A stretch of 64,000 bases of DNA from Nymphaea colorata (Eukaryota; Streptophyta; Magnoliopsida; Nymphaeales; Nymphaeaceae). Each line of letters begins with the position of its first letter. Position 1 is the first letter of the stretch. Below, piece after piece: positions 39,301-64,000 of this stretch. Under the pieces are notes generated by a model. The model was not told the origin of the DNA. It saw only the letters and a list, made by a program, of their open reading frames with translations, and made no database searches. Made by a program: the position numbers and the translations under genes. The DNA lies in the NCBI RefSeq assembly GCF_008831285.2, contig NC_045139.1:27312808-27376807 (forward strand). Direction: 5' to 3'.

Positions 39301-42300
39301 CGACAGTTTAAATCTCTGGTAATCTGACTGATAGACAGTAGGCTATGTGGGAATTCTGGTGCATGAAGAACATGTTGCAACGGCAATGATGAAGTAAGTT
39401 GGACCTCTCCATGTCCAACAACTGGAGAATATTTGCCATCTGCTAGAATAACCGAGCGACCAGGTGGAGCAGGGACATAAGAAGTAAACTGGGCCTTGTC
39501 TCCACAGAGATGTGTCGATGCACCCGAATCAATGAGCCAATCTGTAGTGTCAGTAGCAGGAGTATAGTCAGAATACATACCAGATGAAGACGCACTGGCA
39601 GCAGTAGTGGTAGTAGAGGTGGTCGGATCAGGAGCTTGTTGAGTTCTGTTGATAGATTGTGGGTTTCGGGTCCGGATCCATACCCGACCCGCCTTGTAGC
39701 CCGTTTTGGGCTCTACTTAAGTCATGTAACCCTAATCCTTAAGTGTTAATGATAATCTTAAGAGAGAGAGAGTCTGGCTGCTAGTGGGCACCAACTCCTC
39801 CTCATTCGTGGTTTTTTCTCCCTCGTGTTGAGGGTTTTCCACGTTACATCGTGATCATTGCTTCTCTTCCTCTTCTTCTTGTTCGTATCTCTACATGGTA
39901 TCAGAGCGGTGAAGTTCCGGCGTTTCTGGTTGTCTTTTGCCCGTGTTAGAGGAGAATCGCCCGGCACTGTTCATCGTCTCGCCCGTGCCCGACGCTCGTG
40001 CCCGAGCGTCGTCTGTCGTCCCGCCGCCGTCTCCGCCCAGCGCCGCCCTGATCAACGCCGCTCAGGATTCCGCCGTCTCCGCCTAGCGACAACCGGCCCA
40101 GCGACGCCCTGATTAGCGCAGCCGCTTCCGCCCAGCGTCGGCCTGCCCAAACGACGACCTGTCCAGCGGCGGTCTTTTTCCGCCCAACGCCGTGTCCTTT
40201 TCCGGCGCCGTGCCGCTCTGCCTGATCTGTTTCCGCCCAGCGCCGCGCCGCTTTGCCTGGTTCCGTTTCCTGCTCTCTGTCCGTTTTTTGGTGTTGTATC
40301 GTGTGATTGCTTCTTGCTGCCTACTGGTCTGTGATTATGGCAGCCTCTTCCTCGTCAACCGTCAACACCAATCCCACTGAAATAGGGGCTTTTAGAACGG
40401 AGAATGTTCCCATGCAGGTCATCACTCTTCGCCTCACCAAGGATAATTATTTTTCGTGGTCGCCTGCTATGACCATGGGGATTGCTGGCCGTGGTCGCAT
40501 GGCCTATATTGATGGGAGCAACCCCGAACCAGCAAGAACAAGTGATGTGTGGCATACTTGGTTTCTTGAGGATAATCAAGTGAAAACTTGGATTGTCAAT
40601 TCCGTTTCCGCCGATATTCAGCCCCTTATCCTTCGGAAGAAGACTGCTAGAGACATGTGGGTGGTCCTCGAGCAAATGTATGGCCAAAAGAAGACCGCAA
40701 TTCGTACTTACCAAGTAATGAAGACAGTTTATGGCATTCGACAAGGGACCTCGTCTGTTGCAGAGTACTATGGGGCTTTGAAAGCCAAGTGGGAAGAGCT
40801 TGACTATCATTCTGATATTCCTTGGCATTGTCCCCATGATCAGGCACTCTATGTTGCTCATGAATGGGAAAACAGGGTGTTCCTATTTTTAGCAGGTTTA
40901 AATGATGAGTTTGAAGGTGTTCGAAGTCAGATTTTGAATTCAGGGGAGGTGTCCAGTATTGAAGATGTGTACTCCTGTGTTGAAGCGGAAGAACAGCGAA
41001 GGCTTGTTACAAAAGAAGGGAAGAGGGAACTTGTGCCCTATAACGAGAGATCTGCTCTCGTGAGTCGTGGTCCTGGCGGCCCATCTAGGTCTCTTCGCCG
41101 GTGCACTCACTGCAAGAAGACAGGTCACACTGTGGATTATTGCTGGGATCTTCATCCAGAAAAGAAGGGGAACAGAGGGAGATCTTTGACTGGGAGAACG
41201 CCCGTGTCTGAGGTGCAAGCCTCTAGTGGAGAAAAAGTCTCCATTTCTGCTGACCAGCTTCGTGAACTAAGGGCTTATTTGGGCAGGCTCGATGTCAACA
41301 AGACTGAGACCTCAGAGGGAACTACAGCTAATCAGGCTCTTGCAGCTATTGGCAATCAAGGTAACTCTTCTGTGGGGGAATGGATTGTCGATAGTGGTGC
41401 TACTCATCACATGACAGGTAATCCAAAATTGTTTCATGAGTATAAGTTGTCCTCGGGAAGGGAACGTGTTTCTCTTGCCGATGGTTCCTCTACCTGTGTG
41501 GCAGGCGAAGGCACTCTGTCCTTGTTGGACAAATTTCATGTGCAGGGCGCTTTACATGTTCCCCAGTTTCCTTTAAATCTCTTATCAGTCAGTAGACTTA
41601 CTAAAGAATTGAATTGTGAACTTATATTCTCTGCCGATCGTTGTGTTTTGCAGGACTTGGTGACAGGGAAGAGGATTGGGATTGGTTTAGCTTCTGATGG
41701 ATTATATCGTCTTCCCATACGTGTGGCTACTGCTCTGTTGACAGCGATCCGCAAGACAGATAAGAGAAGAGAAGATTGTCTTCAGTCTTTTATGTACTGG
41801 CATGAACGTTTTGGGCATTTACCTTTTGGGATTTTGAAACATTTGTTTCCAGACTTGTGTTCCTCCTTTGATGTGTCTTCCATTTCTTGTGATGTTTGTC
41901 AGTTTGCCAAACATGTGAGGGCTTCGTACCCTCTTTCTTCTAGTTGTGCTAATGAAGCTTTTTCTCTGATTCACTCTGATGTATGGGGACCTTCGGGCAT
42001 TCATACCCGTCAAGGTTTCCAGTACTTTATCACTTTCATTGATGATTTCTCTCGTGCTACATTTATATACTTGTTAAAAGACCGCAGCGAGGTTCCTCGA
42101 ATCATCGAGACATTTATTCTTCTTGTGCATACCCAGTATGGTGCGAATGTTAAAACTTTCAGGTCCGATAATGCCCGTGAGTACATGTGTCGGCCTGTTG
42201 AGGAGTTTCTTAGACAACGGGGGATTGTTCACGAGACATCCTGTAGTTACACCCCCCTCAAAATGGGGTAGCTGAAAGGAAAAATCGTCAACTTCTTAAT

Positions 42301-47210: not shown

Positions 47211-47255
<45 letters not shown>

Positions 47256-50200
47256 ACCTTTGAGCATTGTTCAATATAAATTGAACTTCATATGAAAATT
47301 TTCTCACGAGGCTCAATACCTAAGGATGATCGTGGGTATGGGTACTGGTATGAGTATGGGTTTAGACTATTTTCAAAAGACTTGGGTACAAGGGTGAAAC
47401 GAGAGTAAGAATTCAAATAGACCTGATAACATATTCATGATTCAAAATTTATAGATTCTAAAGAGGAAACTATTGAATAACAATATAAAAATAACATACT
47501 AAAATTCCAAAATATATTAGCGTTAAACTCTCATATAGACTTATATCATAGTCACAAATAACGTTTCGGAGTTTTAAACGGTGAAGTTTTTCTCGAGTAT
47601 AATATGGCGAGCTTAAAGATAGAAAAAATATGGTAAATTTTTAAAAATTTTAAAAACTAAAAATGAGGAAAGAATAAAATAAGTGAAAAACTAATAACAC
47701 AAACATCTTGCAACAAATAAAAAATAGATAATTGAAAAAAAAAAATGAAAAAAAAAATGATAAATGAAAAAAATGCTTTAAAAACACATTTTTTTAAGGG
47801 ACTGTTGTCCCTTGTTGAGTATGGGCTTGGAGGCCTAGTTTTGGGTGTTCTTTGAGACTTAGTAATACAAGTTATCCACTTCTAGTTGAAGTTTCTCCTT
47901 GTGTGAGTTCTTGGTGTAGCTGGTGTCTTCAAGGGTGTGATTATCAAAGTATTTCTTTCATCAAGTTCAACTCTGATTTACAACGGACTCCCCAACTGCT
48001 ACATTTCTCGCTGTTCGGCCTTCCAACTCCTTCCTATCCTCTTATACAAAGTCCTCTTGTAACATTTTTTTTTTGAGGTTGTTTTTACTGCCCTCATTCT
48101 TTCTTAATAGATGTTCTCTTTCTGTTCTCTCAGGTGTTTTTTCCCTTTGCCCTTAGTGCCTGGTATATGTTCTGCATGTTACTGAGAGGTTTCTCATTGC
48201 TGTGTTACCTGCTGGTTTTGTGCATTAGTCATGATTTCTTGATATCTGCTTTAACAGCAAGATGTTGCACGTTAATGCCTTATTTGTATGCTGCTTATTG
48301 CTATTAACAGCAAGTTAGTGCCATTGGTGCATTGGTTCTCTCATTACTAAGAGATTTCTTGTTGTAGAGTACAGATTTATATCTATACTTGAGTGTCATG
48401 AAGATTGGATGTTATATTCTTTGAAAGAGATTCAAAGATTAAGGTTTCCTAACAGGACTGCAGGGTTTCTTAGCCTGGTCTACGTTCAAATGTAAAAGAA
48501 TCTTGTTTTATATGTGGTAGAACAAAGTCAACCCTCAATAGGAAGATTAGAAAGAATCCATCGGACCATTCAAGGTCATTAGGTATGATAATTGGATTTT
48601 CAGCTATTTGTCTTGGAGAAAATAACAAACCCATTAAGTTCGATCTTCAATTTCAGAAATAGATAGATGACATGAATGAAAAGATGGAGGTTCTACATGA
48701 ATACCCAAATTGGAAGTTGCTTCCACACCTGAGGAGAAAAAGGTTGTAGTACCCAAATGGCTTTACAAGATCAAATCTAAACTTGGTGTAAGATTGAGAG
48801 ATAAAGCAAGACTTGTCACATGAGGTTTTGCACAAGATTATGGACAATAGTATGATGACCTTTAGCCATGTGGTCAAGATATGGACTGTTCACAATGTTA
48901 TCTTTTTGGCAGTTGATTATAGATAAAAGTTGAGTCTATGATGAGACCTTAAAGTATTTCTGCTGCTCCTTTTCTATGTTGCTTTAAAATTTTACAGGGC
49001 AGTACACTAAGCTCAACTAATAGTTGGCTGTTTATGTCTAATGTATCCTGTACATCTGTTTAATTTTCTGGTCAGATTTGTGGGAAATATTTTTTTTGTT
49101 TTGCTAAATGTCATGTTTTTGTTTCTTTTTATGCTTCAATTTTGTTTTAGAAAATAATGAATTATATACTCCTTTGTTGTATTCACATCCTTTCTGCATT
49201 TCATTGAAGTGATGAAGATTTCTACTATGTAATAACAGGTGGAATCTGAGCTAACTGAACTTCCATCCGAGGAAAGGCATGAGTACCTGAAGTCTCTTGG
49301 TGTTAATGAAAGTGGTCTTGGAAATCTGATCAGAGAAACATATAGTCTTTTGGGATTGCGCACATATTTCACATCAGGTGAGAAGGTAAAGGAACTCTCA
49401 CTACTATCTTATTATCTTAATATCTTGATGGTTTTATCCATATAATTGGATCTACTTTGTTTTCGTTTGTTCAGGAAACTAAAGCCTGGACGATTCTTGC
49501 AGGTTTTTCCCTCTTTCCTCCATTTGTAAGCTTCATAGTGCATTCCTGTCACATTCTTGACTCTGATTTCTGGTTTTTAGGGATGACTGCACCTCAAGCA
49601 GCAGGAGTTATTCATTCTGATTTTGAAAAGGGCTTTATTCGAGCGGAAACAGTAAGAGCATGTGCTTGGTTCATTTTATTCTAAAAAACAAATCTGGCTA
49701 CACATATCAAGGGAAGCAAATATGGCTTTTCCTGATATGATGGGGTATCCTATATAATGAAACCTCTCTCTCCCCCTCTCTCCCTCTCAGGCACATGCAC
49801 ACATTCTATTCAAAAATTTGGTTATATATAAAAGTGTGGATATATATGTATAAGTATTTTTGTATGATAACACATGCATGTAGTTATGTAAGTCATCTAT
49901 ACAAACATATTAACTTAATGCACTGTATAAGCCTCTATATTTTTTGAGGAAGTGTTTGAATTCCACTGGTTTTAATCCTGTTTAAGTAGTTGCAGATGAA
50001 AAGAAGTTCAGCTCAAAATGAGTGTCAAGGTTTAACTGGGAATGGAGCTAGGATGTGCATCTGTGAACTTGATATCTTTGTGTCCGCGATTCATCTTGGC
50101 ATCTCATTGTCCATCTGATATTGGTCCTTTTTTGTGTGTGTGCATGGTCACTTGATATTTAGTGTTAATCTATGTGTTTTCTGCAGGTTGCCTACGATGA

Positions 50201-50850
50201 CTTTGTTGCTGCCGGTTCACTAGCAGCTGCTAGAGAAAAGGGCCTTGTAAGTTTCTTTCAGTAAAATTATCACATATGCCCTTCTGAATGCATTTTCATT
50301 TTTGGTTATGGGTCAGCACCCTATTTTACAGGTACCTGTTTTGTTTTAAAAATTGCTGATTTCTCAGTTTGATTTCATGTCTCATTTCTGTCTTCAGGCT
50401 GGACGATGCTGGTCCTTATAGAATTAGTTGAGATATTGCATCCCTGTAAATTGGTGCTGTTTGGGTAACCATTTTTGGTCCTAAGATCTATGGTTGAATG
50501 TGCAAAATTTTCCACTTCATGTCCAGGCATAAAATTGAGTCTAGGCATTTTTTCTATTATTTGCCAAGTACGTAGAACATAATATCGCATGAGCATCACA
50601 GACAACAAATTAAATATAAGCACGTGTTCCTGGTGATGCATGTAATGAATGTCTTAGCAAAACAGGTCAAGGTTTGAATGAACGGGGGATAAAAGCCTCA
50701 TTGTTGCTGTGCAAATAGTAAATATGCATTGCCAAATGTGCATAGGTATGGATGTTTAACCTCTTATGTTTGTTTACGCAGTTGAGGTCAGAAGGAAAAG
50801 ACTATGTGGTTAAGGAAGGTGATGTGATGTTGTTCCGCTTCAACGTATAA
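3164..50850 (+). CDS. ENGD-2: Organelle-type YchF/EngD Obg-like ATPase, 11 exons, 415 aa
   Basis: CDS join: 3164-3364, 4047-4235, 6096-6149, 14274-14384, 34664-34726, 34815-35069, 49239-49385, 49475-49502, 49581-49651, 50187-50246, 50782-50850. All junctions are GT-AG. The frame is open throughout; all introns are phase 0 except intron 8 (phase 1). Residues 1-45 are a Ser/Arg-rich, acid-free leader, typical of a plastid or mitochondrial transit peptide. The P-loop GLPNVGKS is at 54-61, G3 is FVDIAGL in exon 2, and G4 is NVAE rather than NKxD, which in this family favours ATP over GTP. Residues from about 330 to 415 form the TGS domain, ending LFRFNV. YchF/OLA1 proteins associate with ribosomes and act in translation and stress control. 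The length matches Arabidopsis At1g56050 (ENGD-2), recalled from memory, hence the symbol. In-frame Met codons at 35 and 46 could give a leaderless form. Introns 3 (8.1 kb), 4 (20.3 kb) and 6 (14.2 kb) are swollen by retrotransposons. Confidence 0.93.
4047..4235 (+). CDS. ENGD-2: Exon 2: switch regions and G3
   Basis: 63 codons between TTTGCAG and GAG|GTAACG. Contains [10 protein letters not shown], the YchF signature after the P-loop, and the G3 motif [12 protein letters not shown]. Confidence 0.93.
6061..6086 (+). repeat. (CT)13 microsatellite acting as polypyrimidine tract of intron 2
   Basis: An uninterrupted CT run ends 9 bp before the exon 3 acceptor (TTTGCTTCAG). It supplies the whole polypyrimidine tract for that 3' splice site. 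Confidence 0.9.
6096..6149 (+). CDS. ENGD-2: Exon 3: 18-codon micro-exon
   Basis: Encodes [18 protein letters not shown], the loop after G3. Its last codon (Gln148) sits where bacterial YchF has its proposed catalytic His. Flanked by TTCAG and GTTTGC. Confidence 0.92.
6813..7044 (+). repeat. Element A 5' LTR (232 bp)
   Basis: Begins TGTTGAAATT and ends TCTCAACA directly before the primer binding site. The outer half carries an AT-rich promoter-like stretch; the 3' half is CT-rich. Confidence 0.95.
7045..7950 (+). other. Element A 5' leader
   Basis: Non-coding interval between the primer binding site and the gag remnant. A 138-codon open frame on the minus strand here (7124-7540) is low-complexity and judged spurious. 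Confidence 0.6.
7951..11285 (+). pseudogene. Element A gag-pol pseudogene
   Basis: A gag start (MAEIS) at 7951 runs about 54 codons to a TGA before the protease, so most of gag, including its CCHC knuckle, is missing. The protease motif IIDSGAS lies just after 8136. Integrase follows (HLRLGHP, VDVWGP, VDDYSRV), then RT ([16 protein letters not shown]) and RNase H (DADYAG, ending IYAPA). Lesions seen: TAG at 8625, TGA at 9021, a 13-bp duplication at about 9904-9929, a frameshift near 10428, a 1-bp loss in the T run near 10771, and a frameshift near 11035. It cannot encode functional proteins. Relatedness of the linker ([12 protein letters not shown]) to elements E and F is visible. Confidence 0.93.
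11293..11528 (+). repeat. Element A 3' LTR (236 bp)
   Basis: Near-identical to the 5' LTR: two substitutions and four extra CT-repeat bases. Preceded by the polypurine tract and followed by the target duplication AACAT. Confidence 0.95.
11808..12590 (-). pseudogene. Reverse-strand copia fragment (IN C-terminus to RT N-terminus)
   Basis: Read on the minus strand from 12590: integrase C-terminal region ([24 protein letters not shown]), then the RT N-terminal region ([26 protein letters not shown]), fading at about 11808. No LTR, PBS or polypurine tract flanks it. In-frame stops include TGA at 12229-12231 (where Trp is expected in PKW) and TAG at 11832-11834. It is a truncated relic, unrelated in position to element A, which ends 280 bp upstream. 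Confidence 0.88.
12591..13530. repeat. Intron 3 spacer with a 53-bp tandem duplication
   Basis: Ordinary AT-rich intron sequence without recognised coding content. A 53-bp unit starting TGTGCAATAGAAACAT is duplicated head to tail at 12952-13004 and 13005-13056 with almost no divergence. A second, about 21-bp direct duplication (ACTGGGGGTTGTTGACAT core) lies at 13490-13532. Confidence 0.75.
13546..13900 (+). pseudogene. Copia gag C-terminal remnant
   Basis: A Gly/Arg-rich stretch leads into a degenerate zinc knuckle (CTFCGR, stop, [12 protein letters not shown]; the knuckle His is Pro), then HAEYENLF and ASASTAL. The last phrases match the gag remnant of element A (SEYEQFL, ASASTAL), so this is a fragment of the same lineage. 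It retains the knuckle that element A has lost. No LTR is attached. Confidence 0.75.
14274..14384 (+). CDS. ENGD-2: Exon 4
   Basis: 37 codons, starting VVRCFEDND and ending AFADLDQ, the linker into the helical insert of YchF. Acceptor TTGTCAG, donor CAG|GTATGT. Confidence 0.93.
14603..15877. other. Uncharacterised repeat-like segment in intron 4
   Basis: Begins TGTCACACCCCAACC, a terminus style seen in some plant LTRs, and ends in a long pyrimidine tract (about 15695-15855, CTCTCT/CTTTTT). I could not find matching ends or a target duplication, so a solo LTR is only one possibility. No coding content is recognised. Confidence 0.35.
15878..16207 (+). repeat. Element C 5' LTR (330 bp)
   Basis: Longer than its 3' partner because a unit of about 31 bp (core GACTCTAGATTATT) is duplicated at roughly 15988-16049. 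Confidence 0.9.
16370..17431 (+). pseudogene. Element C gag and start of protease, interrupted by element D
   Basis: Starts MDTLSQSF at 16370; the gag core (NYLAWKRQI) breaks at TAA 16688 and shifts frame before 16779. The zinc knuckle [16 protein letters not shown] has Tyr where the final Cys of CX2CX4HX4C belongs. Protease [10 protein letters not shown] follows near 17350. The reading is cut at 17431 by the left LTR of element D and resumes at 27849. Confidence 0.9.
17432..17716 (+). repeat. Element D 5' LTR (285 bp)
   Basis: TGTTAGAATATG...TTTCTACA. Contains an internal inverted repeat (GAACCGGGTCC and GGACCCGGTTC) in its first 60 bp that can form a hairpin. Confidence 0.95.
17717..18045 (+). 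repeat. Element D leader with GC-rich minisatellites
   Basis: Between the PBS and the gag ATG. Two tandem families are visible: a CCGCCGTCCTCTGTT-type unit at about 17835-17920 and a CGTCGCCGCTGCCTCATTCC-type unit at about 17930-18012. Composition is strikingly GC-rich against an AT-rich host intron. Confidence 0.8.
18046..19977 (+). pseudogene. Element D gag, protease and N-terminal integrase (broken)
   Basis: Gag starts MAEAMGTQK at 18046. A 1-bp loss near 18497 shifts the frame inside gag (KTNGRS, stop). The second frame carries the zinc knuckle [15 protein letters not shown], protease [13 protein letters not shown] and GAG-pre-integrase. TAG at 19365-19367 replaces an expected Gln. Integrase ([13 protein letters not shown]) runs to the PPQNG motif, where element E has inserted. 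Confidence 0.93.
19983..20147 (-). repeat. Element E 3' LTR (165 bp)
   Basis: Lies downstream of pol on the minus strand, next to the polypurine tract. Contains TTTATATAGACTAGAGGAG, a short TATA-like stretch shared with element F. Confidence 0.95.
20155..20930 (-). pseudogene. Element E RNase H end of pol, out of frame
   Basis: Continues the polyprotein after a 2-bp GA duplication near 20929-20934 (CAAGAGAGACAGG where element F has CAAGAGACAGG). Carries the C-terminal RT and RNase H motifs ([16 protein letters not shown]) and ends IYAPT before the polypurine tract. It is intact apart from the shift. Confidence 0.93.
20907..24395 (-). CDS. Element E gag-pol polyprotein (1162 codons before frameshift)
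   Basis: One long frame from MSEISSGAN. In order: gag UBN2-like region (about residues 30-210), Gly/Arg-rich segment, zinc knuckle [15 protein letters not shown] (about 251), protease [12 protein letters not shown] (about 350), GAG-pre-integrase HLRFGHLP, integrase with [15 protein letters not shown] and [10 protein letters not shown], a variable linker, and RT with [13 protein letters not shown] and YVDDI (about 1092). The copia strategy of one gag-pol frame is kept. It terminates early (LQERQVC) because of the 2-bp GA duplication, so RNase H is not in frame. It is expressed, if at all, antisense to the host gene. Confidence 0.95.
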   Translation of the reverse strand: MSEISSGANTSSFVSSGEMKSSPFSSIITKMDGGNYEMWAMQVKRTLIAHEKEHLILEPEPVQKVGKYTTWFKDNSLVMVWIVGTLSQEIANEVLHKDSAKDMWDSLAATYSQARNETRIMQLHHDIHQMRQDGRPLHTYYSSLKSMFERLNSYFPACKCEQQKAYRDMLMVGVFLSGLDSVYESAKNQMLTSPSIPPIDEAYSRLSRIPISASTVPDTTSAMLATRGRGGPFFARGRGGRGRGNTPSRPVCQFCHRIGHTVDKCWQKHGRPAFANQTVSTDSPEQPKPQHTASSSELHVDDILSQLRLLIGDSAHQAPGPTTSTVPTAASASSSGMYSACTVCSPPDTTDWLIDSGASTHLCGDKTQFTSYVPTPPGRSVILADGKDSPVVGHGEVQLTSSLPLQHVLHAPEFPHSLLSISQITRELNCRAIFDSSSLVFQDILTGRVIGSGHEQGGLYRLVHSFPFAGSTSSGSSSSSAYTWHLRFGHLPFQKLLHVLPQLSHKSSFQCESCQLGKHHRSSFPPRSSRSSHSVFELLHFDVWGPSRTPDLQGHRYYLVAVDDYSRVSWVFLMKHKSEAGHVIKNFINEILTQFDTCVKIVRSDNALEFCASSLEQFFRDKGIIHQTSCAYTSQQNGVAERKHRHILDVARTIIIHSHVPHSYWGDAVLTACYLINRMPSSVLGDLIPFSVLFPDRELFSVAPRIFGCVAFVQLLGPERDKLSPRAIKTIFVGYSRTQKGYRCYDPSTRRYYVSADVTFFESTSYFSPNGTQLRVPAFSDEVHLPLPLMSYPQPVASRFGAIYQRRTKPVQLAPCAPVPSPSMPKVLPEHTNPVDHSLCDDATGDSPEHATGPHINELDMPIAQRKGKRSCTMHPLSGHLSMARLTPTYRQFVKGLSAVALPQTPMAALSDPKWAAAMQEEMDALQSRGTWTLVTPSSDAAIVGCRWVFTVKYRADGSIERYKARLVAKGYTQTYGVDYYDTFSPVARHASLRVLLAVAVSKNWSLSQLDVKNAFLYGDLHEEVYMQQPPGFVAEGECQKVCRLRKAIYGLKQSPRAWFQKLSENIENEGFRRSSADHSLFVKKTSTGTVIVLVYVDDIIVTGDDIQGISNIKGVLGRHFVTKDLGELRYFLGIEFARNQKGLIMCQRKYVTDVLQERQVC
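24396..25035 (-). other. Element E 5' leader and primer binding site
   Basis: About 630 nt between the PBS (complement of 25024-25035) and gag. Highly GC-rich, with repeated GCAGCGGCGGAGCAGC-type units on the + strand at about 24610-24690. The roughly 55 nt next to the PBS are conserved with element F and include a self-complementary GCCGACTGAGCGGC. Overlapping open frames on either strand are low-complexity and not called. Confidence 0.75.
25036..25200 (-). repeat. Element E 5' LTR (165 bp)
   Basis: Adjacent to the PBS on the minus strand; one C/T difference from the partner at 19983-20147. Confidence 0.95.
25206..27569 (+). pseudogene. Element D integrase C-terminus, RT and RNase H
   Basis: Resumes the D polyprotein at [11 protein letters not shown] at 25377-25379 interrupts the frame. 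From about 25380 it is open to 27569 (ending LEGEC): linker, RT ([29 protein letters not shown]) and RNase H ([18 protein letters not shown]). Nine bases are missing within the conserved [14 protein letters not shown] block (here [11 protein letters not shown]), an in-frame loss of three residues in RT. Confidence 0.93.
27564..27848 (+). repeat. Element D 3' LTR (285 bp)
   Basis: Same length as the 5' LTR; three transitions apart. Followed by the ATAGT target duplication and by element C sequence. Confidence 0.95.
27849..28429 (+). pseudogene. Element C GAG-pre-integrase and integrase start (decayed)
   Basis: Continuation of element C after D. Multiple stops; recognisable only by position and by phrases such as KPFEIVYSD at its end, the copia integrase start, which is split by the hAT-like insertion at 28430. 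Confidence 0.7.
28430..29741. mobile_element. hAT-like non-autonomous DNA transposon 1 (1.3 kb) in element C integrase
   Basis: Flanked by the perfect 8-bp duplication ATTCTGAT (28422-28429 and 29742-29749), the hallmark of hAT insertion. Ends are imperfect inverted repeats: CTATGATACACGGGTACG against CTATGTCACATAGGTACG (14 of 18 match). Both subterminal regions are packed with GGTACGGGTACGGG-type motifs, in opposite orientation at the two ends. Removing it rejoins the integrase phrase IVYSD with WEPTFIDS. Internal open frames (28815-29329, low-complexity) do not resemble a transposase. Confidence 0.85.
29742..31712 (+). pseudogene. Element C integrase, linker and RT (decayed)
   Basis: Integrase ([29 protein letters not shown]), integrase C-terminal region in a 149-codon open stretch at 30153-30602 ([20 protein letters not shown]), then RT ([29 protein letters not shown] near 31358). 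Stops and frameshifts are frequent. The frame breaks at the second hAT-like insertion. Confidence 0.88.
31713..32215. mobile_element. hAT-like MITE 2 (503 bp) in element C RT/RNase H
   Basis: Flanked by the perfect 8-bp duplication TGCTGCGA (31705-31712 and 32216-32223). Ends CAGTGTTGTA and, inverted, CAATATTGTA match at 8 of 10 positions; CARTG termini are usual for hAT elements. Both ends carry clustered ATACGATACG / CGTATCGT motifs. No coding capacity. Its excision would rejoin RYAA(T) with [11 protein letters not shown] of RNase H. Confidence 0.85.
32216..32850 (+). pseudogene. Element C RNase H and polypurine tract
   Basis: Motifs [26 protein letters not shown] and [10 protein letters not shown] are visible, with TGA at the [12 protein letters not shown] junction near 32659. 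Ends at the polypurine tract before the 3' LTR. Confidence 0.85.
32851..33143 (+). repeat. Element C 3' LTR (293 bp)
   Basis: Starts TGATAAGATATTG, ends CCAAAATCTAATA where the 5' copy has CCAAAATGTAACA, so the terminal CA has mutated to TA. Confidence 0.88.
33149..34663 (+). other. Remaining intron 4 sequence
   Basis: AT-rich intron with no element I can define and no coding content. Ends in the exon 5 acceptor (TTGTTGTACAG). Confidence 0.6.
34664..34726 (+). CDS. ENGD-2: Exon 5: 21-codon micro-exon
   Basis: Encodes a basic, Lys-rich helix start ([14 protein letters not shown]) of the YchF coiled insert. Separated from exon 6 by a short 88-bp intron, unlike the giant introns on either side. 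Confidence 0.92.
34815..35069 (+). CDS. ENGD-2: Exon 6: coiled insert and G4 motif
   Basis: 85 codons. Contains the charged helical segment ([15 protein letters not shown]), the [11 protein letters not shown] strand-loop with the atypical G4 NVAE, and ends VVTISAQ, the G5 region. Donor CAG|GTACAT. Confidence 0.93.
35070..36185 (+). other. Intron 6, part before element F
   Basis: AT-rich intron without coding content or a definable repeat. Its last five bases (TATAG) are the target site duplicated by element F. Confidence 0.6.
36186..36355 (-). repeat. Element F 3' LTR (170 bp)
   Basis: Starts TGATGAATTAGG and ends ATCTTAACA on the + strand; identical by eye to 46530-46699, including a GA microsatellite of the same length. 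Confidence 0.95.
36363..39641 (-). pseudogene. Element F protease, integrase, RT and RNase H
   Basis: Open from the element G junction down to 36744: protease [15 protein letters not shown]-pre-integrase, integrase ([25 protein letters not shown]), RT ([18 protein letters not shown]) and the start of RNase H. TGA at 36744-36746 replaces a Trp codon (element E has TGG) in the SNLVTW segment. The frame then continues undamaged to IYAPT at 36363. This single nonsense change is the only lesion seen apart from the G insertion. Confidence 0.95.
39647..39895 (+). repeat. Element G 5' LTR (249 bp)
   Basis: TGTTGATAGATTG...TATCTCTACA; carries an inverted repeat CGGGTCCGGATCC and a run of AG dinucleotides. 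Followed directly by the PBS. Confidence 0.95.
39896..40336 (+). other. Element G leader
   Basis: GC-rich leader between PBS and gag ATG, rich in CGCC/CCGCC repeats (for example CCGCCCAGCGCCG). Similar in style to the D leader. Open frames here are low-complexity and not called. Confidence 0.7.
40337..42271 (+). CDS. Element G gag, protease and N-terminal integrase
   Basis: Start taken at MAASSSSTV (40337), matching the element D gag start; the frame is open 10 codons further upstream. Order: gag ([19 protein letters not shown]), zinc knuckle [15 protein letters not shown], protease [16 protein letters not shown]-pre-integrase ([10 protein letters not shown]), integrase core ([24 protein letters not shown]). 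It ends SYTPLKMG because one C is missing from the C run at 42252-42257, just before the conserved [10 protein letters not shown] motif. Confidence 0.95.
   Translation: MAASSSSTVNTNPTEIGAFRTENVPMQVITLRLTKDNYFSWSPAMTMGIAGRGRMAYIDGSNPEPARTSDVWHTWFLEDNQVKTWIVNSVSADIQPLILRKKTARDMWVVLEQMYGQKKTAIRTYQVMKTVYGIRQGTSSVAEYYGALKAKWEELDYHSDIPWHCPHDQALYVAHEWENRVFLFLAGLNDEFEGVRSQILNSGEVSSIEDVYSCVEAEEQRRLVTKEGKRELVPYNERSALVSRGPGGPSRSLRRCTHCKKTGHTVDYCWDLHPEKKGNRGRSLTGRTPVSEVQASSGEKVSISADQLRELRAYLGRLDVNKTETSEGTTANQALAAIGNQGNSSVGEWIVDSGATHHMTGNPKLFHEYKLSSGRERVSLADGSSTCVAGEGTLSLLDKFHVQGALHVPQFPLNLLSVSRLTKELNCELIFSADRCVLQDLVTGKRIGIGLASDGLYRLPIRVATALLTAIRKTDKRREDCLQSFMYWHERFGHLPFGILKHLFPDLCSSFDVSSISCDVCQFAKHVRASYPLSSSCANEAFSLIHSDVWGPSGIHTRQGFQYFITFIDDFSRATFIYLLKDRSEVPRIIETFILLVHTQYGANVKTFRSDNAREYMCRPVEEFLRQRGIVHETSCSYTPLKMG
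42259..44661 (+). CDS. Element G integrase C-terminus, RT and RNase H
   Basis: Picks up directly after the 1-bp loss with QNGVAERKN and stays open to LEGEC. First Met in frame is at 42316. Contains the integrase tail ([11 protein letters not shown]), linker, RT ([45 protein letters not shown]) and RNase H ([18 protein letters not shown]). No further lesion seen. The element is one base away from a full-length frame. Confidence 0.95.
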   Translation, partial: QNGVAERKNRQLLNVTRALLFQRNLPKHYWGDAVLTSAYLINRMPSRVLNGRTPHSLLPGSRPPFPLPPRVFGCVCFIHDHSPNVKKLDPRSIKGVFVGYSPTQKGYKCIDPITGRAYVTRDVTFLEHASYFGANPLQGEQSVGREEYSQRQELQFIDFLDYKKTESLNTVDVPEKEERGDNSIEKEGPQLFGQFYSRRGTRTEVMTCDARSTSNPNATPSLDEPSPTEETVETHDEVEKKNDDLPIALRKGVRSCTQHPIGNFVSYSRLGKDYKCFVSTLSLAVIPRTVAEAQSDSKWADAMKEEIDALRRNLTWEVVKIPEAAHLVGSKWVYTIKYKPDGSVERYKARLVAKGFSQKYGIDYLETFAPVAKMKTVRVVISLAVMKEWKMYQLDVKNAFLNGDLEEEVYMHMPPGYEEPEMCCKLKKALYGLKQSPRAWFERLRRVMIRHGYKQGNGDHTLFVKKKESKVTLLLVYVDDMIVTGDDEEEIIKLKGLLATEFDLKDLGKLRYFLGMEVARSSTGLVLNQRKYTLDLLEETGKLGCRPAPTPFDTGHKLSLRDGEPLCEEDKGRYQRLVGKLIYLTLTRPDITFAVNVLSQFMHAPTDAHLKAVDRVLCYLKKNPGKGLLYVKQETVEIEGYSDADWAGCGDTRRSTTGYCVYLGGNLVVWRSKRQDVCSRSSAEAEYRAVAMGVSELLWLKILLTDIGIEIEGPMKMYCDNKSAINLANNPVLHDRTKHVEIDRHFIRERIDAKELILPYMKSEDQTADVLTKALPSASFERNVSKLGMFDMYAQLEGEC
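44656..44904 (+). repeat. Element G 3' LTR (249 bp)
   Basis: Identical by eye to the 5' LTR; preceded by the polypurine tract and followed by AGTTC. Confidence 0.95.
44910..45849 (-). CDS. Element F gag (separated from pol by element G)
   Basis: Starts MSEISSGAN like element E. The gag core ([18 protein letters not shown]), Gly/Arg-rich segment and zinc knuckle [15 protein letters not shown] (about residue 250) are all intact. The frame runs into element G at about LIGDRT, where translation would read a short LTR-derived tail. In element E the same region is continuous with pol. Confidence 0.94.
45850..46529 (-). other. Element F leader and primer binding site
   Basis: GC-rich leader with GCAGCGGTGGCAGGCAGCGG-type tandem units at about 46078-46135 and GCGAGCAGGCGGCGGCGGGC-type units at about 46240-46330 (+ strand). 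The PBS-proximal block is conserved with element E. Open frames on both strands here are repeat artefacts. Confidence 0.75.
46530..46699 (-). repeat. Element F 5' LTR (170 bp)
   Basis: PBS-adjacent copy; identical by eye to 36186-36355. Confidence 0.95.
47162..47400. repeat. Microsatellite flanked by an imperfect repeat, plus hAT-1-like remnant
   Basis: A (TA)n tract at 47214-47251 sits between two copies of a GAAAATTTTCTCAYGAG-type sequence (about 47168 and 47293). From about 47325 to 47400, GGGTATGGGTACTGG followed by ATTTTC and ACTTGGGTACAAGGG resembles the inverted right end of the transposon at 28430-29741, with many CG dinucleotides changed to TG/CA. It is a decayed relative. Confidence 0.5.
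48655..48930 (+). pseudogene. Ancient copia RT fragment in intron 6
   Basis: With several frame changes, phrases of a copia RT N-terminus are readable in order: [40 protein letters not shown], and IFLAVDYR. No LTR attached and stops in every frame. Much older than the other elements. Confidence 0.7.
49239..49385 (+). CDS. ENGD-2: Exon 7
   Basis: 49 codons, [10 protein letters not shown] through RTYFTSGEK; the end of the helical region and the beginning of the TGS domain. Donor AAG|GTAAAG. Confidence 0.93.
49475..49502 (+). CDS. ENGD-2: Exon 8: 28-nt micro-exon
   Basis: ETKAWTILA plus the first base of a Gly codon, split by the only phase-1 intron of the gene (78 bp). The next exon supplies GG. 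Part of the TGS domain (KAWTI). Confidence 0.9.
49581..49651 (+). CDS. ENGD-2: Exon 9: TGS domain
   Basis: Completes the split Gly and encodes [20 protein letters not shown], the most conserved stretch of the YchF TGS domain. Donor ACA|GTAAGA. Confidence 0.93.
50187..50246 (+). CDS. ENGD-2: Exon 10: TGS domain
   Basis: 20 codons, [10 protein letters not shown] through AREKGL. Donor CTT|GTAAGT, a consensus plant donor. Confidence 0.93.
50782..50850 (+). CDS. ENGD-2: Exon 11: C-terminus and stop
   Basis: [16 protein letters not shown] and LFRFNV, then TAA at 50848-50850. The FNV end is shared across the family. Confidence 0.93.
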   Translation: MRSEGKDYVVKEGDVMLFRFNV

Positions 50851-53000: not shown

Positions 53001-53215
53001 CAATTGATTTAAATGATTATAATCATTGAGCAAATGAATGAATTAAATCCCTATCATGTTCATGCAAACTTGCGATTTAAATAATTTAAATCAAATAATA
53101 TATTCGAAATTACAAGTTAAACTCATTGGATAAGCTACAATTGAGCAAATGAATGACTTAGATCTTTATCATATTCAAATGTCCTTGTTATTATAATTAT
53201 TTAAATAAATCAGTG
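53000..53215 (+). repeat. Two outlying copies of the 115-bp repeat, forward
   Basis: GAGCAAATGAATGA and TACAAGTTAAACTCATTGGA phrases match the main array at 55850-58175 in the same orientation. Confidence 0.75.
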
Positions 53216-53378
53216 TTGAGGCAATACTGATTTTTTCATCATTGCCAAAAGCGCCTCCATTGTTCCGATCAGGACAAGTGGGTTGGGCCAAATGGCCGGC
53301 GGACGTGAAACGACAATTCCTAGGCAACTCACCATATATATGGCATTGTCTTTCTATATCTATTCATAGAAGCAAGCT

Positions 53379-53541
53379 CAATGAAAAGAGAAGTGGAACT
53401 AGGGGAACGTGAAAGCCAACAGCCTGACGGTTGACAATTGCCTGCAAACTACTTGAGCTTCAATGAAAAGAGAAGTGGAACTAGGGGAAGGTGAAAGACA
53501 ACAGCCTGACGATTGACAGTTGCTTGCAAACTGCTTGAGGC
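53379..53541. repeat. 82-bp tandem duplication
   Basis: Units at 53379-53460 and 53461-53541 both begin CAATGAAAAGAGAAGTGG and share AACAGCCTGACG. About 10% divergent. Confidence 0.85.
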
Positions 53542-54239
53542 GTGGGAAGGGTGTCCATGTCTGTTAAGGAGAAGAACAGGCATGGTGTGTGACGTCCTCA
53601 ACAAAGCTAGAAAGCCACTTGCAACTCAAATTGCTTAAAGTTACGTTACGTTGGAACAAAGACCTATTTGAGAAGGAATCAAAACAAGGATGGACGCTAT
53701 GCATCTGGTCAGATAACACGCATCGTAGGCCATCCTCGGTTTTCTTCGTTTTTTATGAAGCTTTTATAGCTGGATCTCCACCCAATTCCAATTTCTCCTT
53801 TCCATTAATGTAAGTTTCATTCTTTTAGAAAGCAGTTGCAAAGCATGGGGCTTTGCTCGTGACGTGATGTGACTTAATATGACGTGACTGCTTTCCTTTT
53901 CTTTCCAAAATCCATTAAGGTGGAGTTGTGGAGTCTAGTTCTGAAGGCCGTGTTTAAGTCAAGTAAAGGCTCTCAAGTCAATGTGGAGCAAGCTGCAAGC
54001 GTCACTTGCTTGATAGACCTCCCAGCACCAATGTGATTAGAGCACACACGAGAGGACGGGCAGCTTCACATCTGATTTGACTAGCAGCCCATCAGCTGGT
54101 CGAGTCCTTACTATACGTAACATTCATTGAACCGACCGACCTTAGCGACCAGTTATAGGACCTTCACGTTGTTGGCCTCTTCAAACCGCTAGTAGTGGAC
54201 CTTCCAATGCGATTGCATGCTTTCTGTGCTCCTTTAGAT

Positions 54240-54460
54240 GCGTATTACAAGTCAATTTTATTGGATCAAGTCATTCATATGATTGTAGTCAATTTAGTGA
54301 GACTGACAGGTATTACATATATGGAAATTAGTCATTTAAATTATTGTAATCATAAGTTTATATCACACAAATGAAATTTAAGCCATTTATTTTCAATTAT
54401 AATACATCAAATGTGTTTAACTTCTAATGACATCTATATTGATTAATTTAAATGATTGTC
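54240..54460 (-). repeat. Inverted outlying copies of the 115-bp repeat
   Basis: Read on the minus strand, the ACAATCATTTAAAT and AATCAATATAGATGT phrases match the main array. Opposite orientation to the copies at 53.0 kb and 55.9-58.2 kb. Confidence 0.7.
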
Positions 54461-54828
54461 AACACATTTTCGCACGTAGGCTTGAAAAATAGGCTAAGTA
54501 ACTCAAGCTCATCGCGTTAAAACTCGGATTGAACTTGAGTTTTCCTTTTTGTTAAATAAGCTAAGCTCGATTTAAATTAAAACTTGAATGTATAAATGAT
54601 CTGAGGACGACTTTAAATTAAAACTTGAGCTTGACTCAAATAAGCCCGAGTTGGCTCGTTTACCTTATTTTTGAAATATGAAAAAATAGCTTCAGATTTG
54701 CGAAAAGAACAGCAAAAAACTCCTTTTTGCAAATATATTATTCAATAATGTTGCGGCTTTAACATTTTAGAATTATGACAGCTTTTTGAAAATAGACAAA
54801 AAGTTTGGGTCATTTTGAAATTAAATGG

Positions 54829-54872
54829 TATAAAAGCCTTCACTTCACCTGCAATCCTCCTTTGCTTCTTTC

Positions 54873-54906
<34 letters not shown>

Positions 54907-55171
54907 CTCCTATCCCATACCTCTTCACTCCTCCTGTTCTCCCAAATCTCGAGTTCCACAACCGTGCCAGCATCTCTGACGGTTAGCATGCCAACAACGA
55001 TTCTGAGGCTGCAACCCACCATAGTAGAACGATGGCGGTAAACCCATGCTTAGCTTTCACTATCTTTTCTGTTTATTTATTATTTTATGTATTTCCTTTT
55101 AATTTTTAACAGGTTCTCCCCCTTTTGGCTGAGGGTTTTCGTGGATGAAAACTGAATCTGCCTTGTCTGGC
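54829..55171 (+). promoter_or_regulatory. Promoter-like block and possible small spliced transcript
   Basis: TATAAAAG at 54829-54836 is followed after about 40 bp by a CT-rich leader, including (CT)n at about 54876-54902. An ATG at 54988 opens MPTTILRLQPTIVERW. GATGGCG|GTAAAC could act as donor and TTTTTAACAG at about 55111 as acceptor, continuing the frame to a TGA near 55152, for a product of about 30 residues. I do not recognise it. It may be the 5' end of a gene or of a repeat. Confidence 0.25.
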
Positions 55172-55619
55172 AAGGCTATCGGTGGCTCTGAGACCAGGCA
55201 ACCCATCATACATGATGAGGGCTGACCTAGAATAAGTTTTCATGTTGCTGCGCCCTACAGTGATGACCCTAATTATTTTATCTAAATGTCATTCCTCTCA
55301 GTTTTAGAAACTCCATTTAAGTAATCAAGTTACATGAGCTTAAATGAGGTCATTCCTCTTTGTTTTTAGGGTTTCTAGAAACTCCATTTGAGAAATTGAG
55401 TTAAACGAGCTTGAACAAGGTCATTCTGCTTTGTTTTTAGGGTTCTCTGTAGGGTTTCAAAAACTCCATTTGAGAAATCAAGTTGCACAAGCTTAAAAGA
55501 GTCGAGTTCAAGCTTGACACAAATTGTCAAGTTGAGCTCGAGTCAAGCACTAATTAGTCAAGTTGAGCACGAGCTCGACTCTGCTATTGTTCACTTCTAT
55601 TCATACGAATACGAAAGGG

Positions 55620-55790
55620 GTTCAAGTCTTTCATTCACTCAATTGTAGTTCATCTTGTGAGTTTAACCTATAATTACATCTATATTGATTGATTTAGATG
55701 ATTATTATTATAAGTTTGTATTTAAACAAATGAGATTTAGGTAATTTATTTTTTCAGTTATAACTTATCTAGTGTTCTCATCTGGCTACG
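55620..55790 (-). repeat. Further inverted copy of the 115-bp repeat
   Basis: Contains GAGTTTAACC, ATTACATCTATATTGATTGA and TCACTCAATTGTAGTTCAT, reverse complements of array phrases. Confidence 0.7.
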
Positions 55791-55849
55791 ATTGAGCTAA
55801 TGAATAACATAAAATTTCATTCATATTAGTATGAAATTATGATTATAAT

Positions 55850-58175
<2,326 letters not shown>

Positions 58176-58299
58176 TAAGCCAAATCCTAGACCCAAAACA
58201 AATTTGCAACTACTCAATCCAAAATGAATTTCTATACCCTTGTTCGAACCCAAACACAAAATTCAATTTCAGAACCCAACTTTAGACACGAGATTCAAA

Positions 58300-60355
58300 C
58301 CCAACATCCAATTCTCAGATCCAAATTAGATCCAAAACCCAAGTCTAGATAGAAATCAAGAAATTAAAACTCAAATTCCAAAGCTGAGATCCAAATGACA
58401 AAATTCAATGCTATTGAGCACCCCGCACACGTGCATGGACCTTCCTTTGTTTTATGTTTCGTTCTTGTGCTGAAATGCGTTAATAAGCTTAAACCACTCA
58501 GTAGAGTGTGTTGGCAACCAATTGAACCCCAATCCGGATCTAAACAACCCGAAATCATTCAAAACGGAGTCGGCTTCATTTTTAACGAAAACCATTTTTA
58601 CCCCTTTTAAATATATATCTAAAATATGATTTTTAGCTCTTTTTATTTTATTCTTTGAACGACCCTCGGGAGGTGAAATCAACATCTTAATGGTTCATAG
58701 AAGACAATAAGGGGTGCGTTTCACCCCCCTTTATGCAAACTTGGTGTGGCAGGGCTGCTTCGACATGCTGGCAGGGCAAGCGTAGGCACGCATCCATGCA
58801 CTGCACGGTCACGCATGAGCACACCTTTGCGCATCGCGCCTGGCCTCACGCCGCGTGTCGAGACCTCCCATTTTGATGAAAAATTGGCTTGGCTGGGTCG
58901 ACATTAGCCCACACACCAAAGAGGTGTTTGCAGGGCTAATGGCCAATCCCACTTAGTCAAAGCCTATTTAAAAAAATTAAAAATTATTCAAAAAATACTT
59001 GAAATTTGCATGAAAATCATGTTAAATTAAAAGAAGATCAAATTTTGAATTTTGACTCCAAAACTCTTTATAAATACCTCTACAATCCTCCCTCTTGGGC
59101 ATGAGCTAACCCTTGGGGGAATTTTTAGTGCTTTATCACTTGAAATCTTAAAGTTTTTCCTTAACTTTTTCTCTCAATTTCTCTCTTCTTCTCTTCTTCT
59201 TTTTCTCCAACCTTGAGAGCAAGCAAGCTCAAACTCTTCAAGGGAGCACGAAGAGATCTCTTGGGGGAGATACCCTCATCATCTTGAGGTTTCATCTTAG
59301 GTGACCCTAGGATCATTCAAAAGAAGAAGACATTTCTAATATCATCTATATTCAAGGTATGTAATCATCCTCTCATTTATTTTCATTTCCTCTTGCCACC
59401 TCCCCATGGCCATGCAAAAAGCTCTAAAGATTTCTTATCCGAAGTCATGAGCTACTCTTGAGTGTACTAGGAGTATGAGTAGGGTGAATAAATTACATTT
59501 CCTCATTTATTTTCAAAAAGGTGCTTGTTACATTGCTTTACTCATCATTTATCTTTGAGATGATGCTTATGCATGATGTATTAATTTTTCTTAATTAATG
59601 AGCAAATGCATCACAAGAATGAGTGTTTTGGTTGAGATCTTTTCATTATTATGTTGATTTTTGAGGTTGGAATTCGTCCAACCTGGGAAAGCTCTTTACA
59701 AATATGTACACATTAAAATGTATTTTCATGTAAATATCATAATTAGTTTCTTTCTTAATCACCCGATTAGGAATATCAAATAGTGTTTTGTTACGTTGTT
59801 TTCTATGTCATGACTATTTGGTTTTCTTCCATACCTAATGGTGGGAGAAATACATTCTCTTGTAACAAACAAAATGATTATGGTTTTATGTTCACATATA
59901 AAAAATATTGGAATCATGTTTTCCAAAAGATTTTCAAAAGCAAAAACACTCTCTAATGGGGCCTTGGAGACTTAGCTTAAGCTCTTGCATAAGCCCAAGT
60001 TCCTCTTCGGCCTACATAAAAAATTGAAGTCGGATATTTTTAAGTTATTTATTGATTTCGATTCTCATAAAGACATATGCGTATATATATGCTATATACG
60101 TATATGTGCACATGACTATCTCTCTTTGTCTTTCTCTCTTTATGATTTAACATATTATTTTACAAACTCTCGTATATATAAATATATATACGTGTATTCC
60201 ATTCTAAAATCTCTCTCTCTCTCTCTCTAGAGTTTTATTTTCTTTAAAAAAAATCTCTTTTTCTCTAAAATCTCTCTCTTTTTTTAAAATTTTCTTCTCC
60301 CTCTTCATTTGAATTAATACTTTCTTTTCACAAGCTTTCATATACGTATCCATAC

Positions 60356-60398
<43 letters not shown>

Positions 60399-61245
60399 TA
60401 TGTACATATATATGTATCTTTCTCTCTTTTAAATCCTTTGTTTTGTGATTTTCAAAATCTCTTTATCTTTCTCCATATTCCTCTTGTATTGAAGTCTTTC
60501 CTCTTTTCTATTCCTTTGAATATCTCTCTCCCAAGAACTTTTCATTTGCCTACTTCATCAAGACCAAAACTTAAGTAATGACTCAATATTGGAATCATGC
60601 TTGATGGTCTACAATCTCATTCCATTTATAAATACTTTTATCTTTACGTAAAAGTGTTTATGATAAATATTTAAATAAAAATAATAAGCTTAGATGTATG
60701 TGATGGTAGGAATACTTTTAGATAAATGTTGTGATAAGAATGAACGATTTGCTTATAATCATGTAGGGCCAATGCATTCATACGTTTACTTTCACTTAAC
60801 ATCACGAACGATCACAAACACCTCTCTAAAAGAACTTAAGCAGGATGAGATGAAGTTCTAGGTAGGTAGCAACCGAATTAAAGCAAAGTCTCAAACCTAC
60901 ACTTCTTAAGAGAACACTAAATCAACTTCAAAAGTAATTTTCAAGGGTTTCTAGAAAATATTTGTAAAGATCTTCTAATTCAAAATTTCAATCAAATCAA
61001 AGCAAAGGACATTTAAAAACTTTCTCAAAAATTTGAAATATCAAGTCTTCAATATTTTTTCAAACACCGCACCACATTTAGAATGAAAAATATGTTTAAG
61101 TAAAAATGAAATGCATCAAGAAAAACATAGTCATTGAATTGATTACCCTGATAAAGGGGCCAAGAACGATCGATCCTCCTACTGTTGGGTGAGTCCATTT
61201 CTATCTCATTTAAAATAAAACTCACTTTTTTAGCACTCCAAAAAT
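58300..61245 (+). repeat. Left arm of a giant inverted repeat
   Basis: Reverse-complement similarity to 61254-64000 throughout: for example GGCAACCAATTGAACCCC at about 58512 against GGGTTCAATTGGTTGCTAG at about 63794; CAACCTTGAGAGCAAGC at about 59209; ATGCTTGATGGTCTACA near 60600; and GAACTTAAGCAGGATGAGAT near 60832. A TATAAATA box lies at 59069-59076. Arms differ by substitutions, small indels and microsatellite length. Confidence 0.88.
60357..60396. repeat. (TA)n microsatellite, left arm
   Basis: About 20 TA units; the mirrored position in the right arm holds the tract at 62133-62184. Confidence 0.9.
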
Positions 61246-61253
61246 CAAATAAT

Positions 61254-62130
61254 ATTTTTGGGGATGCGAATAGAAAAATGAGATTTTATTTTGAAATGAG
61301 AAAGAAAGGAACTCGCCCATCGGTACAAGAATTGACCGTTCCCAGCGCCTTTGCCAAAGGTAACCAATCCAAGGGCTGTGCTTATGTTTGATGCATTTCG
61401 TTGTTGTGTAAACATCTTTTTTATTCTAAATGTGGTGCGCTGTTTGAGTAAATATTGATGATTTGATGTTTCAAAATTTTTGAGAAAGTTTTGAAGAATC
61501 ATTTGAGAGTTTAAAACATTTTACTTTAGAAAATGTTGAGTGAAATTTTTTTTATAAATATCATTTATAAACATTTGAGATCACTTTTGGAAATCACTTT
61601 GGTGTTCTCTTAATGCTCTAAGTAGGTTTGAGGTCTTGCTTTAAGTCGGTTACTACCCAGTTAGAGCTCAATCTCATCTTGCTTAAGTTCTTTTAGAGAG
61701 GTGCTTGTGATCATTCATAGTATTAAGTGAATGTGAGTATATGAATATATTGATCCTACATTATTAGAAAAAAATCATTCATTCCTACCATGACATTCTC
61801 TAGAAGCATTCCTACCATTACATACATCTTAGTTTCTCATTTTTGTTTATAAAATTGTCATAAGTATTTTTATGAAAAGAGAATGTTTTTAAAAATAGAA
61901 TGGTGTTGTAGACCATCAAGCATGATTCCAATGTTATTACTTGAGTTTTGCACTTAGTGAAGTCAGAAAATGAAAAGATCTTGGGAGAAAAATATTCAAA
62001 AGAATGGAAAAGAGAAAATGCTCTAATTCGAGAGGAATAGAGAAAAAGAGAGAGAAAAAGAGATTTTAAAATCACAAAATAAAAGGTTTTTAAAAAAAGA
62101 AAGAGAGAGAGGTACGTATACATATACGTA

Positions 62131-62187
<57 letters not shown>

Positions 62188-62315
62188 GCTTGTGAAAAGA
62201 AAGTATTAACTCAAATAAAGAGAGAGAAGAAGATTTTAGAAAAAGAGAGAGAGAGATTTTAGAGAAAAAGAGATTTTTTAGAGAAAATGAGACTCGAGAG
62301 AGAGAAAGAGAGAAT

Positions 62316-62350
<35 letters not shown>

Positions 62351-64000
62351 CATATGTGAGAATTTGTAAAAGAAAGTGTTAAATCATAAAAAAATAAGGA
62401 CAAAGAGAGATAGTCATGTGCATGTATATGTATATAACATGTATATACATATATGTCTTCATGAGAGTTAAAATCAAGAAATGACTTGAAAATATTCAAC
62501 TTCAATTTTTTTGTAGGCTAGAGAGAAACTTTGATTCATGCAAGAGCCTAGACTAAGTCTCCAAAATCTTATTAGAGACAGTATTTTCATTTGAAAATCT
62601 TTTAGAAAACATGATTCCAAATATTTTGTATATTAACATAAAATCATGATTGTCTGTTACAAGAGAATATATATCTTCCACCATTGGCTATAGAAGAAAA
62701 TCAAACACACATGAAATAGAGAGCAACGTAGTAAAGTACTCATTGGGGTTCTTAATTTGATGATTAAGAAAGAAACTAAACGTCTGAATGACATGAGGAT
62801 GCATGTTAATGTGTACATATTCGTGAATGACTTTCCCTAGTTAGACAAATCTCAACCTCAAAATCAACAAAAAAATGAATAAATCCCAACCCCAAACACT
62901 CATTCTCGCTGTACATTTGCTCATCAATTAAAAAAAATTAATACATCATGCATGAGATCATCTCAAACATAAATGAAGAATAAAGCGATATATCAAGTAC
63001 ATTTTTTAAAATGAACGAAGAAATGGAATTTATCTCCCTAAGCGATCCCCTCATGTTCCCTTGAAGAGTTTGGAATTGGAGAGGCTTGCTCTCAAGGTTG
63101 GAGAAGAAGAAGGGAAGAAGAGAAAAAATCTAGATTTTCAAGTGACAAAACACTAGAAGTTTTTTATGGGTCATGCTCAAGAGGGAGGATTGTGGGGGTA
63201 TTTATAGAGAGTTTTGGAGCCAAAACTCAAAATTTGAATTTTTTTAAATTTAACAAGATTTTCGTGCGAATTCACAGTATTTTTAAATAATTTTAATTTT
63301 TTAAAAATATGATTTAACTAAGTGGAATTGACCGTTTGCCCTGCAAAGACCCATTTGGGGCATGGGCAGGGTAATGTCCACCCTAGATGGTTAAAACTGC
63401 CCCCAAGGGGCGGTTTAGCACAAAAATAGGGGCATGCATGCCTGTTCGGTGCATCAGTGCTATCACACAGCAGTGCATTAGGCACTAGTGAGTCACGTGA
63501 CGCGCACAACGCCTGTTCGCACCTTTGCGACGCATGTGCAGGAGCGCTCACCATCACAAGTGCACTCGCCATCGCGCGCAGCAGGGTGCATGAGCAAGCG
63601 CCATTGCATGCAGCATGGTTTATTTTCTTTTTTTTTTTTGCATAAACTAAAATAAAATGGAATAAATAATAAAAAACGATGTTTTAATAAGAAGGCATAA
63701 AACCAATTTTTTGAATGTGTATAAAAATGGTTTTTGTTACAAATGGGGGTCGACTCCGTTTTGAGTGACTCCTGGCTCATTTTAAATCTGGATTGGGTTC
63801 AATTGGTTGCTAGCGCGTTCTAAATGAGTTGTTTAAGCTCAAAAACACAATTTTGGTGTAAGGATGAGAAATAAAATAAAGGGAAGGTTTTTGAGCTCAT
63901 GTCCGGTGCTTGATAGCATCAAATTTTGTTGTTTTGATCTCGATTTTGGATTTTGAGTTTGAAATTATTGATTTGGATCTAAACTATGATTTTGGATCTA
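61254..64000 (-). repeat. Right arm of the giant inverted repeat, truncated by the window edge
   Basis: Mirror of the left arm around an axis near 61249 (GCACTCCAAAAAT and ATTTTTGGGGATGC flank an 8-bp loop). The mirrored TATA box reads TATTTATA at 63199-63206. Similarity still holds at 64000, so the arm continues outside. On the minus strand, TTTGGCAAAGGCGCTGGG near 61360-61343 resembles the primer-binding region of Tat/Athila-type gypsy elements, only loosely. Confidence 0.85.
62133..62184. repeat. (TA)n microsatellite, right arm
   Basis: About 26 TA units, counterpart of 60357-60396. A second TA-rich run follows at about 62313-62351 beside an AG-rich stretch. Confidence 0.9.

Follow-up and report, generated by a model that had tools for sequence, protein, structure and literature searches.

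Introduction

Foldback inversions, known from yeast and cancer genomes, consist of mirror-image arms around a tiny loop and a short inverted repeat, and work in yeast is reported to have demonstrated fold-back priming at inverted repeats close to breaks (PMC10622511). Inverted arms with inward promoters are also found in foldback and Mutator-like elements (MULEs) with long terminal inverted repeats (TIRs); the TIRs of MULEs, as in MuDR, carry such promoters, typically measure 100-500 bp and are accompanied by a target-site duplication of 9-11 bp, as described in PMC3310237. Among the long-LTR Ty3/gypsy retrotransposons (Tat/Ogre, Athila), a TATA box, a pyrimidine-rich leader and long non-coding arms are combined. 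Finally, IR71 and IR2039 of Arabidopsis are described as inverted repeats that yield small RNAs (PMC5910406).

Here we describe a large palindrome at the right end of a stretch of plant DNA of 64,000 nucleotides, referred to as the window. It shares the mirror-image arms, the tiny loop and the short inverted repeat with the foldback inversions of yeast and cancer genomes, but it lies in a plant, its arms have diverged by about 23%, and the event itself is deduced from sequence alone. Its apparent likeness to long-LTR Ty3/gypsy elements is countered by a primer-binding site (PBS) that does not exceed chance, by the lack of gag and pol signals among the arm ORFs covered by the search, and by undefined LTR ends. 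Compared with MULEs, which share the inverted arms and inward promoters, its arms of about 3 kb are far longer, and its right end is outside the window. Like IR71 and IR2039 it is a long inverted repeat capable of forming dsRNA; unlike these small-RNA producers, it is known only as a sequence, one with no known relation to theirs.

Results

Extent and centre of the palindrome

Alignment of positions 55001-64000 against their own minus strand by blastn revealed that the region from 59480 to 63040 is palindromic (3,640 columns, 77.5% identity, E 0, 2,704 bits). Two further inverted pairs were found in the same comparison, 58895-59272 with 63031-63383 (73.2%) and 58327-58600 with 63722-64000 (74.8%), the latter reaching the window end. 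When 58300-64000 was dinucleotide-shuffled 20 times, no inverted pair exceeded 40.1 bits, as against 2,704 for the real palindrome; the low-complexity filter was on for the shuffles and off for the main comparison, and the 3,640-column match persisted with the filter on. The palindrome and its left flank are made up of the following features.

56111-58172, + strand: satellite array of 113-115-bp units, flanking the palindrome and ending cleanly at the probable start of the left arm
58327-61245, + strand: left arm (self-blastn, alignment, identity by segment)
61246-61253, no strand: loop CAAATAAT, 8 bases, between CCAAAAAT and ATTTTTGG (read from the sequence)
61254-64000, - strand: right arm, cut by the window end (self-blastn, alignment, identity by segment)

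The centre reads CCAAAAAT - CAAATAAT - ATTTTTGG, so that two inverted arms are separated by a short spacer, as in a foldback inversion (palindromic duplication); arm homology ends no more than 8 bases short of the centre, at which an 8-bp stem is found. A preceding sequence-only reading had proposed inverted arms of at least 2.7 kb around an 8-bp loop near 61249, extending past the window end. The orientation, the arm coordinates, the loop and the run to the window end (the outermost block is cut by its edge) agree with the present analysis, and the arms turned out to be slightly longer than claimed, at least 2.9 kb. The same reading had excluded an assembly artefact from the differences between the arms, and we concur: because the arms have diverged by about 23%, an ordinary fold-back read artefact, which would be expected to give near-identical arms, was rejected.

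The left arm probably begins at 58173, because satellite units run to 58172 and end there. The mirror position of 58173 is about 64155, beyond the window end, and the mirror partner of the arm outward of 58327 thus probably falls outside the window. The only match to the arms elsewhere in the window was to a TA tract (47212-47251). No Rfam match was obtained at the gathering threshold, and each of two arm-derived DNA patterns gave no match against viral contigs.

Surroundings in the window

The satellite of 113-115-bp units spans 53009-58172 in total, with stray units on both strands to the left of the array. A second, weaker palindrome is present at 55617-56410 (64% over 844 columns), centred near a 122-bp TA tract (56000-56121) that supplies much of its score and bearing satellite units in opposite orientation on its flanks. 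At 16767-46700, copia-type LTR retrotransposons that contain long ORFs form a nest; it includes an ORF of 1,163 aa (20907-24398, - strand) with RVT_2, rve and gag domains, and self-blastn detected direct copies of 90% identity at 20006-23458 and 36210-39649. Furthermore, a YchF-type GTPase gene with introns has its last exons at 49239-50850 (+ strand): of four exon pieces, two are recognised by Pfam YchF-GTPase_C (E 7e-10 and 2e-6), a third matches YchF chains in PDB (best E 2e-10), and the fourth, of 20 aa, is without match. The copia-type ORFs and the intron-bearing YchF-type gene are consistent with a plant nuclear genome.

Divergence along the arms

With simple repeats set aside, the arms are 77.0% identical across 2,058 homologous columns, with 295 transitions, 179 transversions and a K2P distance of 0.282; this count leaves out 58610-58895, the gap at 59272-59480 and the microsatellite-rich 60110-60420. 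If 1.3e-8 or 7e-9 substitutions per site and year are assumed, this distance would place the age of the palindrome, as a rough estimate, at about 11 to 20 million years. Identity per 50 columns is near uniform along the arms, without clear heterogeneity (p = 0.076), and the arms contain 28 and 27 CpG dinucleotides, 6 of which are shared. Identity is low at 60916-61015 (58%, p = 0.003), where indels make the alignment uncertain and where misaligned indels are perhaps the cause. Three features interrupt the correspondence between the arms.

58610-58895, no strand: left-arm block, barely alignable with its mirror at about 63383-63722 (forced alignment about 41%)
63383-63722, no strand: right-arm counterpart of this block (forced alignment, local and global tests)
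59272-59480, + strand: left-arm stretch of about 207 bp without right-arm counterpart (self-blastn, alignment)

The block at 58610-58895 reaches about 41% identity with its mirror in a forced alignment, between flanks of 71-80%. A weak similarity to the mirror was nevertheless detected, with p 0.002 and 0.022 for two scorings of a global alignment and p 0.048 for a local one. Same-strand alignment gave p 0.94 and 0.99 globally (two scorings) and 0.092 locally, and an inversion of the block relative to its arm is therefore unsupported. The CpG observed/expected ratio is 0.82-0.85 in the GC-rich part of the block, 0.80-0.88 in the outer arm segments and 0.44-0.48 in the remaining arms; high CpG as a mark of recent replacement was set aside, since the outer segments are similarly high. 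The two blocks are either fast-evolving or were replaced in one arm.

This block disfavours a single event, because its near-random similarity between well-matched flanks is not explained by plain decay, and it fits two different family members better; the low identity at 60916-61015 also tells against one event, if misaligned indels are not its cause. The arms might accordingly represent two related LTRs, solo or truncated, of one long-LTR family that were inserted separately, tail to tail. The block is located upstream of the TATA box, a part in which LTRs of the same family frequently diverge; moreover, the TATA box and pyrimidine-rich leader have an LTR-like appearance, and much of the window is filled by copia-type LTR elements. 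Nevertheless, both ends would have to fall at most 8 bases apart at the identical family position, the PBS is not above chance for the two tRNA complements scored, gag and pol signals are lacking in the 10 of 16 arm ORFs searched, and the promoters are conserved without excess (see below). We consider this origin unlikely.

Opposed TATA boxes

Each arm contains a TATA box at a mirrored position.

59069-59076, + strand: TATAAATA, left, pointing inward (surroundings 87% alike over 100 columns, within chance)
63199-63206, - strand: TATAAATA, right, pointing inward and mirroring the left one (sequence)

Within 58300-64000, TATAAATA occurs five times on the + strand and once on the - strand. The most similar 100 columns of the arms, 59003-59102, hold the left box and are 87% alike, which is within chance in column shuffles (p = 0.67); the same applies to the best 50 columns, 59545-59595 (94%, p = 0.31). 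Hence, the existence, mirroring and inward direction of the boxes, as proposed before, are confirmed, whereas their special conservation is not, and promoter conservation as a sign of function was rejected, as the TATA stretch is within chance for arms of such overall identity. As far as the data go, both boxes were probably retained by common descent and not demonstrably by selection. Chance-level conservation is what would be expected if neither arm had been active during most of the period after their separation.

Inward TATA boxes within inverted arms could also be the remains of a foldback or Mutator-like DNA transposon that consists almost entirely of long TIRs and has lost its internal genes. 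At 58172/58173 the left arm seems to break off sharply against satellite DNA, which points to an inserted element no less than to a chromosomal fold-back. We nonetheless doubt this origin: the arms of about 3 kb exceed the TIR length given for MULEs (PMC3310237), the right end and any target duplication fall beyond the window, and the absence of a transposase from the 10 of 16 arm ORFs searched, though expected for a foldback, lends no support.

Proposed primer-binding site and coding content

An Asp-type 18-mer matched at 12 of 18 positions at 61162 (- strand) and at 11 of 18 at 61343 (+ strand), with two further + strand places tied at 11, and best scores in shuffled sequence ranged from 10 to 14. 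Of the two tRNA complements scored, Asp-type and iMet-type, neither revealed a PBS of the Ty3/gypsy kind; plant elements also prime with Arg, Lys and Asn tRNAs (PMC6317226). The two central matches represent one homologous site that reads outward in both arms, and it cannot be the PBS of LTRs whose TATA boxes point inward. The loose match near the centre that had been taken to suggest a possible gypsy origin is thus at chance level and in the wrong direction, and was rejected as such.

Of the 16 arm ORFs of at least 70 aa, 10 were searched against Pfam at E 0.1, and none had a match; the other six comprise five overlapping TA/CT tracts and the ORF at 63430. Neither gag-pol, which a solo LTR would lack anyway, nor transposase was detected in these 10 ORFs. 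Frame-by-frame comparison of the arms gave, among the first 10 matches, similarity in several frames, as expected from DNA identity alone; in view of this and of the Pfam result for 10 of 16 ORFs, coding remnants in the arms were rejected. The arm DNA is probably non-coding and transposon-derived; its TATA box and pyrimidine-rich leader we take to be LTR-like, and the element type is presumed from resemblance.

The origin offered by the sequence-only reading, in which auto-integration of a gypsy element brought together two of its 5' ends, both truncated, agrees with LTR-like inverted arms that meet at one centre. With a primer site at chance level that reads outward, and with no internal gypsy sequence in the 10 of 16 arm ORFs searched, it appears the least probable of the origins considered here.

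Hairpin RNA potential

Summed over 15 pieces of about 150 bases each, predicted arm-arm pairing amounts to -2008 kcal/mol, as compared to -666 for the same pieces folded alone. A + strand transcript would form 1,827 Watson-Crick and 180 G:U pairs among 2,364 aligned columns (108 gap columns set aside), and a - strand transcript 154 G:U pairs among the same number of columns; the longest stretches of unbroken Watson-Crick pairing measure 34 (in the TA tract), 27, 24, 24 and 23. The arms are thus predicted to be capable of forming long dsRNA, as in endogenous hairpin small-RNA loci, and the proposed potential for a long hairpin RNA holds, given transcription. AATAAA occurs between the TATA boxes seven times on the + strand and six times on the - strand, which makes read-through of both arms uncertain.

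A role as a small-RNA source is possible. The strong predicted pairing would suit a hairpin locus under selection, comparable to the small-RNA-yielding IR71 and IR2039 (PMC5910406), and mismatches need not abolish function, since hairpins with one mismatch in four are reported to have still given uniform RNAi in tobacco transgenes (PMC9263138). Constraint is not seen, however, as decay is near uniform and the TATA surroundings are at background level, and the AATAAA motifs add to the doubt, which makes such selection improbable. Quite improbable, too, is a recurrent foldback element with arms of about 3 kb and opposed inward promoters, the hairpin transcript of which would yield small RNAs against the parent repeat family.

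Discussion

The palindrome is tentatively interpreted as an old palindromic duplication, generated when one fold-back at a short central inverted repeat copied about 3 kb of non-coding repeat DNA, a reading to which we assign a probability of roughly 0.45. It is preferred because the arms remain homologous until the last 8 bases before the centre, a short stem is present, decay is near uniform and promoter conservation shows no excess, and it is ranked above related elements placed tail to tail and above a foldback DNA transposon.

The source DNA would probably have been one end, with its promoter, of an LTR-like or TIR-like transposable element. A strand that broke or stalled may have turned back on itself where the short inverted repeat CCAAAAAT/ATTTTTGG lies, and filling-in and replication of the folded strand would have produced two mirror-image arms with an 8-base loop. 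Point mutation, CpG loss and indels would then have lowered the identity of the arms to about 77%, with the inward TATA box staying in both through common descent. RNA across the centre, if transcribed, would fold into a long hairpin with imperfect pairing, a possible substrate of Dicer-like enzymes, and it would act mainly on itself and on related repeats.

Most likely, the palindrome is repeat DNA of the ordinary, decayed kind. Palindromes that are very large and have tiny loops tend to be unstable, and this one, with arms that have drifted about 23% apart, may be read as the trace of an ancient rearrangement that has endured. Were it expressed, the palindrome would provide a natural parallel to the tobacco transgene hairpins that carry one mismatch in four.
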